A stretch of DNA of 64,000 bases from Roseovarius sp. GTDB lineage: Bacteria; Pseudomonadota; Alphaproteobacteria; Rhodobacterales; Rhodobacteraceae. Within the stretch, counting starts at the first letter, position 1; each line of letters opens with the position of its first letter. The DNA lies in the NCBI GenBank assembly GCA_021775255.1, contig JAJFIA010000019.1, positions 143,878 to 207,877 of the forward strand, written 5' to 3'. Below are positions 54,869 through 59,072 of the stretch, in pieces. The notes under the pieces are model-generated. The model saw only the letters and a list, made by a program, of their open reading frames with translations. It was not told the origin of the DNA and did no database searches. Made by a program: the position numbers and the translations under genes.

Positions 54869-56410
54869 CTAGCGCGTGATATCCGCCCCGCCCTCGGCAG
54901 TGCGCCGGGCGATAAAATCATCAATCTCTTCCAGCCGCGAGGGATCAAGCGGTGGCGGCTCATAAGCGGCAAGTGTTTCCTGGAAAATCCGGCTGGCGCG
55001 GGTTGTGGCATCGACCGATCCGCGCTCGGCCCAGTTTTCATAATTGTTCCAGTCCGATACCAACGGCGAATAAAACGCGGTTTCAAACCGTTCCAGCGTA
55101 TGGGCTGTGCCAAAGAAATGCCCGCCATGGCCGACATCGCGAATGGCCTCAAGCCCAAGGGTGGCATCGTTGATGGCCAGGGGCTTGAATATTTCGGCGA
55201 ACATTTGCAGCACTTCGATATCAAGGATCATCTTCTCAGCGGAAAAAACCAGCCCGCCTTCCAGCCACCCGGCCGCATGCATGACAATATTGGCCCCGCC
55301 CATCAGCGCGCCCCAAAGCGACATCTGCGATTCGTAAGCTGCCTGCGCATCAGGCGCATTTGACGCGGTCGGCCCGGATGAGCGCAACGGCAGGCCATAG
55401 CGCCGCGCCAGTTGACCCGAGGCAAAGGCCGCCCTGACATATTCCGGCGTGCCAAAGGCAGGCGCGCCGGTTTTCATATCCACATTCGAGGTGAAACTGC
55501 CGTAACACACCGGCACACCGGGGCGGACGATCTGCGACAGGGCAAGGCCCGCGAGCGCCTCGGCGTTTTGCATCACCAGCGCGCCGGGGATCGTGACCGG
55601 GGCCATGGCACCGGCCAGAGTGAACGGCGTGAGGATCATCATCTGCCCCGCACGGGCGGCATCAATTATGCCCGCACACATCAGATGATCCAGTTGCAGC
55701 GGCGAATTGGAATTGGCCACCGAAAGGCTGAGGGGCGTGTTGACAAACTCTTCAGGGCTGAGGCCATGGGCGATGCGAAGCATCTCGTAACTGTCAGCCA
55801 CCACGTGCCGGCCACGAAAGAACACGCCTGAGATTTTGTCGGTCAGGGTAATCGCCGATCTGACTGTGTGGTAGTGACGCAGGTTTGGCGGGATGTCCTG
55901 CGGCTCAACCGGCACCCCGGCCATATGGATCACGTCAAAGCTTTGTGCCACCCGCATGATATTGTCGAAATCCGCCTGTGTGCCGGGATGGCGGGGATTT
56001 TGCAGGCTTGAGAAATTGGGCGTGCCGCCCGCTGTGCCCAGGGCCACATTATTGCCGCCGATCCGCAAATCACGGGTTCGGTTGCGGCTGCGCAGGGTGA
56101 ATTCGGAAGGCGCCTGCGCGATCAGGTCAAGCAGCAGATCAGGGCCAAACCGGATCACCTGATCTTCGGCTTCCGTCATGCCTGCGCTGACATAAATCTC
56201 CCGCGCCTCGGGGCTGAGCACCTTGATGCCGATCTCACAGAGCACCGTCAGCGAGGCCTGGTGAATCGCTTCAATCTCATCAACGCTGAATTGCTCGATC
56301 GGCGGATAGGGGTTTTTGATCTGCCGCCAGGCGGCATCGAAATGGCTGGCGGCCTGATTCTTGCGTTTGGCCGCGCGGCCCTGTCTACCGCCGGTGCGTT
56401 GGCGCGTCAT
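54869..56410 (-). CDS. Trimethylamine methyltransferase family protein (MttB superfamily, no in-frame TAG)
   Basis: 513-aa ORF; IEQFSVDEIEAIHQASLTVLCEIGIKVLSPEAREIYVSAG; LGTAGGTPNF; FGTAHTLERFETAFYSP; EGGADITR end. Confidence 0.88.
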   Translation of the reverse strand: MTRQRTGGRQGRAAKRKNQAASHFDAAWRQIKNPYPPIEQFSVDEIEAIHQASLTVLCEIGIKVLSPEAREIYVSAGMTEAEDQVIRFGPDLLLDLIAQAPSEFTLRSRNRTRDLRIGGNNVALGTAGGTPNFSSLQNPRHPGTQADFDNIMRVAQSFDVIHMAGVPVEPQDIPPNLRHYHTVRSAITLTDKISGVFFRGRHVVADSYEMLRIAHGLSPEEFVNTPLSLSVANSNSPLQLDHLMCAGIIDAARAGQMMILTPFTLAGAMAPVTIPGALVMQNAEALAGLALSQIVRPGVPVCYGSFTSNVDMKTGAPAFGTPEYVRAAFASGQLARRYGLPLRSSGPTASNAPDAQAAYESQMSLWGALMGGANIVMHAAGWLEGGLVFSAEKMILDIEVLQMFAEIFKPLAINDATLGLEAIRDVGHGGHFFGTAHTLERFETAFYSPLVSDWNNYENWAERGSVDATTRASRIFQETLAAYEPPPLDPSRLEEIDDFIARRTAEGGADITR

Positions 56411-57051
56411 GGCATTTCCTTACGTTTCAGCACCCTTGCACTATAGGCCAAGGCCGTTGCAGGGTTGATCTCACGCCCGGTAAAGGCGCTGAAATAAGCG
56501 GAAAGATAGCTGAGCCTGTCGGCCATCGGCTCATCCACATCCAAGGCATAATAGCTGAGCTGCGTGAAATAGATCACCCGGGCGCGGATGAAAGCCTCGA
56601 TTTTTTCATAATCCTGACGCTCGAAAAACCCGGCAATGGCGGCAACGCGGGCGTCATCCTCGGCCCTGAGCGTTGCCATCAAAGCCTCTGAATGGCGCGC
56701 CCAATCGCGGATTGCCTGATCAAGCTTGGAATCAAATCTTGTGTGATCGGTCCAGACGGAAAACAGGGCAAGAATACCGTCATCAAGGGTTTGCGCCCCG
56801 GCAAGCGCCTCAAGCATCACCCCGGTATTGCGCGCGCGCCATTCCTCAACCAGCGCATCAAGCAGCGCCTCGCGATCATCGAAATGCCAGTAAAAGCTGC
56901 CGCGCGTGACGTTTAATTGCCGCGCAAGCGCCGTGATTTGAACGGCGCCGATGCCTTGTCTGATCAATAGGTAAAGGGCCGCCTGAGTCCAGTTATCTGC
57001 CGTCAGATTTGTGTTGTGCGCATTTGGATCTGTGGCTGAAAGCAAGGACAT
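56407..57051 (-). CDS. TetR/AcrR family transcriptional regulator
   Basis: QITALARQLNVTRGSFYWHFDDREALLDAL HTH; ATGA overlap with the mttB-like gene. Confidence 0.92.
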   Translation of the reverse strand: MSLLSATDPNAHNTNLTADNWTQAALYLLIRQGIGAVQITALARQLNVTRGSFYWHFDDREALLDALVEEWRARNTGVMLEALAGAQTLDDGILALFSVWTDHTRFDSKLDQAIRDWARHSEALMATLRAEDDARVAAIAGFFERQDYEKIEAFIRARVIYFTQLSYYALDVDEPMADRLSYLSAYFSAFTGREINPATALAYSARVLKRKEMP

Positions 57052-57099: not shown

Positions 57100-57250
57100 T
57101 TACAGTCAATGTTAAGGTATGACGCGCCGATGAAAATCACCCGCCTGCGAAAAGACGATCATTCCAATGGCTGGAGCGCAATCCTGCCCAGGTGGCGGGC
57201 GAAAACGCCTCGGGGCGCAATGTTCATCTGCTCATTTAATGCAACGGCAA

Positions 57251-58117
57251 TTAATGCAACGGTAATTTATCAGGATTGCGCATGGAATAAATCCAGTTGA
57301 TCAGCCCATCCTCATTACTGGTGATGGTATAGATCATATCATCCGGCCCGCCTTCGAGGATGGCAAGCGCCGGGGCGTGATTGGCACGGATCAGTTTGAG
57401 CCCCTTGATACCCGCCTTTTTAGACACAATCGACAGGATCACCTGCGCCACTTCCTGAGGCCCCACCAAGGGCCGGAAAGCCGAACTGACCTTGCCGCCA
57501 CCATCGCTGATGGCCACAACATCGGGGGCCAGCAGGGACAGAACCGTCGCGTGGTCCTGCGCCAGGGTGGCCTGAGCAAACTTACCCAGAAGTGCGGCGG
57601 TCTCAGCCGGGTCAGGCACAAACCGGGGCTTTTGTGATTTTACCTGCCTGGCGGCGCGGCTGACCAACTGGCGGCAGGCGGCTTCGGATTTGTTCAGGAT
57701 GTCGGCCAGTTCGGAATACTCCGTGTCAAACACCTGTCGCAGGATAAAGGCGGCGCGCTCTTCCGGTGTCAGCCGCTCCATCGCCCATAAAAGCGCCAGA
57801 TGGCATTCCTGCGCCATGGCAAACCTGTCTTCACCGGATTGATCGGTCTCGGCAACCAAAGGCTCGGGCAGCCATGGGCCAATATAGGTCTCGCGCCGGT
57901 TTCGGGCCGAACGCAGCGCATCTATTGCGGCCCGCGTCGTCACCCGGTGCAGCCATGCGGCGGGGTTTTCAATATCCTGATGCGCCGCCCCCGACCAGCG
58001 CAGCCAGACATCCTGCACAACGTCCTCGGCCGCCGCCCGCTCACCCAGCATGCGATACGCCAGCGCGATCAGGCGCTGGCGTTCTTGCTGGAAAGGGTCC
58101 TGCGCGTCAGTGGTCAT
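57251..58117 (-). CDS. ECF41-type RNA polymerase sigma factor with C-terminal SnoaL-like domain
   Basis: Sigma70 regions 2 and 4 plus ECF41 motifs WLPEPL, DGGGK and NPDKL. Confidence 0.93.
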   Translation of the reverse strand: MTTDAQDPFQQERQRLIALAYRMLGERAAAEDVVQDVWLRWSGAAHQDIENPAAWLHRVTTRAAIDALRSARNRRETYIGPWLPEPLVAETDQSGEDRFAMAQECHLALLWAMERLTPEERAAFILRQVFDTEYSELADILNKSEAACRQLVSRAARQVKSQKPRFVPDPAETAALLGKFAQATLAQDHATVLSLLAPDVVAISDGGGKVSSAFRPLVGPQEVAQVILSIVSKKAGIKGLKLIRANHAPALAILEGGPDDMIYTITSNEDGLINWIYSMRNPDKLPLH

Positions 58118-58653
58118 GCGGGCATCTTTACTATGGCAAGCTGTCTATCGCCCAGAGCAATCTTTTGACAGGCCATGCCATGGCCAAGCGCGCGTTTCAT
58201 CACCGGATAAGCCCGGCCCGATGCAGCGGCATAAGCGCATGCGATCACGGCCTTTTCACCATGAACCGCGCGGATTTCATCACGCAGGGCATCGGCCTGA
58301 ATATCGCCCGATATCGCAGCCTCGGCAAACCGAAACCCAAGCCCCGCCGGGCCAGCCGCCTCAAGATCACGGGCAAGGCAGGCGGCAATCTGCGCCTCGG
58401 ATACGCCTGCCTTTACCGCCATTTCAACAATCAACTGCGCACAAGGCCCGCAATCGCCATCCAGGGTCGAGGCCAATGCCGCCCCGGCCCAGACCTCGGG
58501 CACCGGCCCCTTCATCTGGCTGACGGCCCCAAGGCCAAGATAGCGCAGCGCCGCCCCTGGCCAGATGTCATTGACCTCTAGCATATAGGTGATGTCATAC
58601 GCATGGCTGCGGCCAAAATTACGCAGCAGTTTCCCAAGGATCAATTTGATCAT
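58114..58653 (-). CDS. AhpD-like/carboxymuconolactone decarboxylase-family protein
   Basis: LDGDCGPCAQLIVEMAVKAGVSEAQIAACL; start set at MIKLILGKLLRNFG. Confidence 0.75.
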   Translation of the reverse strand: MIKLILGKLLRNFGRSHAYDITYMLEVNDIWPGAALRYLGLGAVSQMKGPVPEVWAGAALASTLDGDCGPCAQLIVEMAVKAGVSEAQIAACLARDLEAAGPAGLGFRFAEAAISGDIQADALRDEIRAVHGEKAVIACAYAAASGRAYPVMKRALGHGMACQKIALGDRQLAIVKMPA

Positions 58654-59021
58654 GATGTGGCTCCTTTCACGCGGGTGGCAAAGAACAGCGTTACGGCGGC
58701 AATCCCGGCTGTGGACAGGACATCGCCAATGGCACGGGTGGTATCGTGATTGCCGATTGAGATCAGATGAAACGCCCCGTGCAACACCGGGAAAGCCGCC
58801 CCCAGAAGGGCAAGGGTTTTGTCGCCACGCATGGCCCCAAGCCAAAGCCCCGCCGCGCTGACCAGAAAAGCAAAGCCCGCATCGCGGGTGAAGTGATCAT
58901 TGAACGGCCCGGTATCAGTTACTCCGGGGATGGTTTCATAGAACGTGAGTGGTAGCATGATAAGCCATGCCGCAAGGCAAGCGAAATATGCGGCAAGCAG
59001 CAACAGGATTGGTTTGGTCAT
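58650..59021 (-). CDS. Small membrane protein (four TM), ECF41-linked
   Basis: MTKPILLLLAAYFACLAAWLIMLPLTFYETIPGV; overlaps the downstream gene. Confidence 0.75.
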   Translation of the reverse strand: MTKPILLLLAAYFACLAAWLIMLPLTFYETIPGVTDTGPFNDHFTRDAGFAFLVSAAGLWLGAMRGDKTLALLGAAFPVLHGAFHLISIGNHDTTRAIGDVLSTAGIAAVTLFFATRVKGATS

Positions 59022-59045
59022 TGTTTAAGCCCCTTTCGTACCTAT

Positions 59046-59072
59046 GACGAGGCAGGGCTTTGCTTTGTGACA
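59046..59072 (-). promoter_or_regulatory. Putative ECF41 promoter TGTCACA-N16-CGTC
   Basis: Minus strand TGTCACA (59072-59066), 16-nt spacer, CGTC (59049-59046), 24 bp before the first ATG of the operon. Confidence 0.7.

Follow-up and report, generated by a model that had tools for sequence, protein, structure and literature searches.

The locus considered here raises the question of what a small membrane protein does in the operon of a sigma factor: does it supply the sigma factor with its signal, or is it one of the products that the sigma factor regulates? The operon has three genes on the minus strand of the window (the whole stretch of Roseovarius sp. DNA that was analysed, 64,000 nucleotides), encoding a protein with four transmembrane (TM) helices, a protein resembling carboxymuconolactone decarboxylase (CMD) and AhpD, and a sigma factor of the ECF41 group. 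Its features are as follows.

59072-59046, minus strand: ECF41-type promoter TGTCACA-N16-CGTC, with the -35 element at 59072-59066 and the -10 element at 59049-59046
59021-58650, minus strand: four-TM gene (123 aa), first gene of the operon
58653-58114, minus strand: gene for a CMD/AhpD-fold thiol protein of the CGPC type ('type B'; 179 aa), second gene
58117-57251, minus strand: gene for the ECF41 (SigJ-like) sigma factor (288 aa), third gene
57857-57874, minus strand: WLPEPL motif of the sigma2-sigma4 linker (sigma residues 82-87)
57491-57505, minus strand: DGGGK motif of the C-terminal extension (sigma residues 205-209)
57263-57277, minus strand: NPDKL motif at the C-terminal end (sigma residues 281-285)

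A probable self-regulating ECF41 operon

ECF41 sigma factors are recognised by a WLPEP motif in the linker and a C-terminal extension of about 100 residues with conserved motifs, by a neighbouring CMD, oxidoreductase or epimerase gene with no obvious anti-sigma gene, and by the promoter TGTCACA-n16-CGTC (PMC3426412). The sigma factor in the window consists of sigma2 (residues 9-72) and sigma4 (residues 108-157) only, plus a large C-terminal extension from about residue 163, and WLPEP lies in the linker between the two domains. WLPEP, DGG(GK) and NPDKL are common to its relatives, most of which have the extension motifs, and by this comparison the motifs of the extension are conserved. A CMD-fold gene is found upstream, TGTCACA-n16-CGTC precedes the operon, and a search with family models recognised no anti-sigma gene beside the sigma gene, where the four-TM protein, of putative function, is encoded. 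The sigma factor scores 301 bits against the NCBIfam SigJ subfamily model (cutoff 271), and its best solved relative is Mycobacterium tuberculosis SigJ (PDB 5xe7), to which it aligns over the full length (E=1.5e-49). The ECF41 identity proposed in a preliminary description of this DNA is thus supported by family score, structure match and shared motifs. That description had also placed WLPEPL, DGGGK and NPDKL together as C-terminal motifs; all three are present, but WLPEP belongs to the sigma2-sigma4 linker.

The coordinates bear out the three overlapping genes, as both junctions (four-TM/CMD-like and CMD-like/sigma) are 4-bp ATGA overlaps. The full promoter sequence is TGTCACA-AAGCAAAGCCCTGCCT-CGTC, and its last base lies 24 bp before the four-TM ATG, exactly as first described. 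It is identical to the published consensus, and transcription would be expected to start near 59040. For RpoE9 of Sinorhizobium meliloti, also an ECF41 sigma factor, the start site has been mapped at a TGTCACA/CGTC promoter (PMC6180224).

With a spacer of 14-20 bases, the motif occurs once in the window (0.06 expected), and the genome-wide search that the preliminary description had proposed returned seven such sites in the whole 3.4-Mb genome, with the exact N16 spacer only at the operon promoter. Alternatively, transcription of the operon might depend on another sigma factor or on readthrough, in which case the ECF41 motif would be a coincidence. Exact 11-base matches arise about once per genome by chance (simple base counting gives an expectation of approximately 1.6 for this genome size). 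The motif by itself is thus weak evidence, and N16 sites with at most one mismatch are barely more numerous than in a control (32 vs 24). However, among the 30 of these 32 sites that we examined, 29 lie in open reading frames and the operon promoter alone lies outside one and before a gene; these 30 near-matches thus include no further ECF41 target outside reading frames. A sigma-70-type site was looked for upstream of the operon and none was found. Moreover, position and 16-bp spacer are kept in 42/42 sigma-linked relatives (see below). The weight of the evidence lies with the promoter's position and its conservation across species: recurrence of the motif at the corresponding place in 42 related sigma-linked TM loci argues strongly against a chance match, and we consider a coincidence very unlikely.

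The locus is a textbook ECF41 sigma operon, probably self-regulating, and a new member of ECF41. Since the family is well tested and its defining properties are found here, together with a conserved promoter, we infer autoregulation, as had been suggested. The sigma factor would transcribe its own operon from TGTCACA-N16-CGTC as a one-operon regulon, in keeping with the two species in which ECF41 was shown to have no detectable target besides its target operon (PMC3426412). The fused SnoaL-like C-terminal domain, rather than an anti-sigma factor, would gate the sigma factor, as has been shown for other ECF41 proteins, in which partial truncation of the extension increases activity by about 20- to 120-fold and full removal abolishes it (PMC3426412).

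Around the end of the operon we also observed a short tandem repeat (TTGCCGTTGCATTAA) at the sigma stop codon (window positions 57231-57260). Further downstream on the same strand (54869-57051) are a TetR-family regulator and then an MttB-like gene (trimethylamine methyltransferase-like, by eye).

The CGPC-type CMD protein

The GDCGPC sequence sits in the CMD-like protein, with CGPC at residues 68-71. This protein scores 18.3 bits against the Pfam CMD model PF02627, below the gathering score of 23, and 12/30 of its relatives match the model at E<=0.01 (best E=6.2e-5). Alignment by hhalign to classical ECF41-linked CMDs gives E=8e-7, with only 17% identity in the profile-profile alignment, and all matches in a PDB profile search are CMD/AhpD-type proteins (Bmp8, Atu0492, AhpD and others). 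The predicted structure (pLDDT 90) likewise finds only CMD/AhpD-type proteins among its top 15 Foldseek matches, at probabilities of 0.80-1.00 but with E above 0.04. With the predicted AhpD/CMD fold and a CxxC site, the protein is assigned by profile and model to the CMD/AhpD superfamily.

Alphaproteobacterial ECF41-linked CMDs are of two kinds. The classical AhpD kind has about 150 aa and the sequence SQINGCA[YF]C..MH, and easily matches PF02627. The CGPC kind, as in the window, has about 180 aa, DCGPC and a third invariant cysteine; the invariant residues are C68, C71 and C162. A CGPC-kind protein is annotated as 'hypothetical protein' in a plasmid record.

Typed CMDs are of the CGPC kind in 41/41 loci with the four-TM gene, vs 10/26 loci that lack it. 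We nonetheless dropped the rule that the four-TM gene occurs only with CGPC-type CMDs, because the CMD type changes only three times on the sigma tree, so that independent pairs cannot reach significance. The rule is also countered by plasmid four-TM-sigma operons and by NAD(P)-binding-four-TM-sigma operons, which have no CMD in the operon.

The nearest two-gene relative of the window operon (L012, 2353-2994, minus strand) has the order promoter, CGPC-type CMD, sigma. Between its promoter and CMD gene, at the four-TM position, is a 16-codon open reading frame that overlaps the CMD start and is possibly a remnant or a coupling leader.

The four-TM family: output or input

Two profiles, of 2 and 43 rows, were searched against 386 alphaproteobacterial genomes and identified the same 24 genomes as having a four-TM gene. 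ECF41 is present in 21/24 of these, vs 58/386 overall (Fisher p=2e-16), and at the level of genera in 15/18 vs 42/276 (p=3e-11). Directly upstream of an ECF41 sigma operon are 15/26 of the four-TM genes, and a contig scan found the four-TM/CMD/sigma triad in Hyphomonas, Marinicaulis, Parvibaculum, Bradyrhizobium, Nevskia and others. The preliminary description would have given way had the gene been absent from other ECF41 loci; instead it is present there and co-occurs with ECF41. In each of the 43 sigma-linked loci, that of the window among them, the promoter precedes the four-TM gene with a spacer of exactly N16; its boxes are exact in 26 cases and have one mismatch in 15 and two mismatches in two. 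Many of these cases are close relatives (Bradyrhizobium) and thus not independent. In a plasmid triad of Rhizobium sp. Pop5 (L177), outside this 43-locus set, the boxes are exact and 15 bp apart.

The gene is nevertheless optional. About three quarters of the alphaproteobacterial genomes with ECF41 lack it, as do many ECF41 loci with a classical AhpD-type CMD, and its presence is uncoupled from the sigma tree, with at least eight gains or losses. In the window's family, 12 genomes with ECF41 but no adjacent four-TM gene have no detectable four-TM gene anywhere, so ECF41 sigma factors do not need the four-TM protein. Conversely, four-TM homologues in Myxococcota/Deltaproteobacteria (L064, L066, L069, L070, L078, L079, L081, L083 and L088; signature GPMHWY...TGPFNPHFVRDIG) have neither an ECF41-like promoter nor an ECF41 sigma gene nearby, and the four-TM family therefore has other settings too.

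None of the Pfam or NCBIfam models claims the window's four-TM protein, and its relatives, labelled "hypothetical protein" in plasmid records, give weak, scattered matches. Membership in the DoxX/DUF4345 families was rejected, as such matches are weak and below cut-off for the window protein (DoxX_2, PF13564: 14.5 bits, gathering score 26.3). Four residues are invariant in 43/43 diverse members: H43 and D47, which form HxxxD at the start of helix 2, and H81 and H85, which form HxxxH in helix 3. Invariance of four polar residues across 43 sequences indicates purifying selection. The confidently predicted model (pLDDT 92, pTM 0.86) has helices at 2-22, 42-65, 68-92 and 97-115, and the charge distribution places both termini inside, so that helices 2 and 3 would carry the His and Asp residues towards their predicted periplasmic ends and, judged from the helix limits, at a similar depth. 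A plausible guess is that these residues bind a metal or another cofactor. The family has no conserved cysteine, which ruled out a disulfide-relay (DsbB/VKOR-like) role, and the model has no solved or viral fold relative at E<=0.001.

These data bear on whether the four-TM gene might be an unrelated passenger that came to lie in the operon by chance and plays no part in the ECF41 response. Its optional presence, changing repeatedly on the sigma tree, would fit a passenger, but the same order, overlap and promoter placement recur in many families, the co-occurrence with ECF41 is strong (p=2e-16, as above), the polar residues appear to be under selection, and unlinked copies have the promoter as well. 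We therefore consider a passenger very unlikely.

The unlinked copies are also informative about the direction of the relationship. At least five four-TM genes have the promoter away from a sigma gene: one locus (L047) has a four-TM-CMD pair without sigma behind an exact promoter, another (L041) has the four-TM gene alone behind an exact promoter, and in three (L029, L038 and L055) a four-TM gene that is not beside a sigma gene has a promoter with one mismatch. In two genomes (G413 and G273) the sigma gene is elsewhere, behind its own promoter. The four-TM gene also seems to combine with different partner genes. A two-gene four-TM-sigma operon without CMD is found in Methylobacterium (L179, exact promoter) and in Sphingobium (L183, in which the promoter was looked for and not found), and Novosphingobium (L176) has an NAD(P)-binding-four-TM-sigma operon with an exact promoter.

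Two of these loci contain additional promoters. In Novosphingobium a divergent classical CMD gene (L176, 2116-2571, minus strand) lies behind TGTCACG-N16-CGTC, and in Methylobacterium an NmrA-like SDR gene (L179, 5161-5919, minus strand) lies behind TGTCACA-N17-CGTC, beside the four-TM-sigma operon; there can thus be more than one ECF41-type promoter per locus. Separately, Parvibaculum sedimenti (L089, 3784-4628) has an exact promoter and a four-TM start, but the CMD gene is missing and the sigma gene is reduced to its C-terminal half, apparently a deletion or an assembly error.

The preliminary description had proposed the four-TM protein as a candidate input or partner. Our results correct this in one respect: the protein looks more like a co-regulated output than an input, since unlinked copies keep the promoter. 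An input would be a membrane sensor or anti-sigma-like partner through which a signal from the periplasm reaches the sigma factor's SnoaL-like domain. The tight ATGA coupling at both junctions is compatible with this, as is the position of the invariant His/Asp cluster close to the periplasm, and the natural signal of ECF41 sigma factors is unknown (PMC3426412). From the operons without CMD (L179 and L183), the four-TM protein could equally regulate the sigma factor. However, in the other species investigated, ECF41 sigma factors need no second protein to act (PMC3426412), and most ECF41 loci, including those of the family genomes above, do without the four-TM gene. A regulated, exchangeable output best fits the combination of unlinked promoter-bearing four-TM genes, separate sigma promoters and at least eight gains or losses. 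The promoter on unlinked copies thus appears to favour output over sensor, and we regard an input role as unlikely.

We consider it likely, then, that this is a self-transcribed, domain-gated ECF41 operon whose four-TM protein is a regulated effector, putatively in thiol/redox or electrophile defence. The operon would yield two co-made outputs, a cytoplasmic CGPC-type CMD/AhpD-fold thiol protein and a four-helix inner-membrane protein, the latter a recurrent effector of ECF41 regulons and not a sensor. The thiol and NAD(P)-binding partner proteins suggest a part in redox or electrophile defence, where the four-TM protein might carry out a membrane step of the same defence as the CMD protein via a bound metal or cofactor; its invariant residues are consistent with such a metal or redox role. 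More speculatively, and with rather low probability, the four-TM protein could be the missing signal-handling component: a periplasm-facing metal or cofactor site would make, remove or sense a small molecule detected by the SnoaL-like domain, and a co-transcribed membrane enzyme would close a feedback loop.

ECF41 is a widespread sigma group, and a conserved membrane protein without a name, found behind the group's promoter in many families, offers a new handle on its physiological role. The four-TM family suggests that a membrane step is involved, and its residue cluster is defined and can be mutated. It also predicts that in some species the regulon extends beyond the sigma locus, contrary to the single-operon view of ECF41.

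Comparison with known systems

The ECF41 system itself is already known; as far as the literature was searched, what is new is a four-TM family that recurs and has promoter copies of its own. A 2012 study noted only unnamed 'hypothetical proteins' between or beside ECF41 locus genes (PMC3426412), and the ECF41 literature that we searched contains no description of the family, although an earlier mention elsewhere is possible.

The ECF41 loci of Rhodobacter sphaeroides (RSP_0606 - ecf41Rsp) and Bacillus licheniformis (ydfG - ecf41Bli) (PMC3426412) resemble that of the window in having a sigma factor with a WLPEP linker and a fused C-terminal domain (in the window putatively regulatory), an upstream COE gene, TGTCACA-n16-CGTC, one detectable target operon (in the window a predicted one) and no recognisable anti-sigma gene. 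Unlike the window, they have no four-TM gene, and the R. sphaeroides CMD is of the classical AhpD type (with SQLNGCAFCLQMH in L014, the locus bearing the RSP_0606 promoter), whereas that of the window is of the CGPC type. S. meliloti rpoE9 (SMb20029 CMD - rpoE9; PMC6180224) is likewise an alphaproteobacterial ECF41 operon with the same promoter and one target, but has two genes, with no four-TM gene reported. M. tuberculosis SigJ (5xe7) is homologous to the window sigma factor over its full length, including the SnoaL-like domain, although it is actinobacterial and has another operon context.

The four-TM protein shares small size, four helices and weak, sub-threshold profile matches with DoxX-like/DUF4345 proteins, from which its family differs in the HxxxD and HxxxH signature and in having no member shown to pass a Pfam cut-off. 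Finally, the CMD protein of the window has the predicted fold and the CxxC site of the Bmp8 debrominase, M. tuberculosis AhpD and Atu0492, but differs from AhpD/CMD proteins in having CGPC in place of C-A-[FY]-C with the following MH, and a third invariant cysteine.
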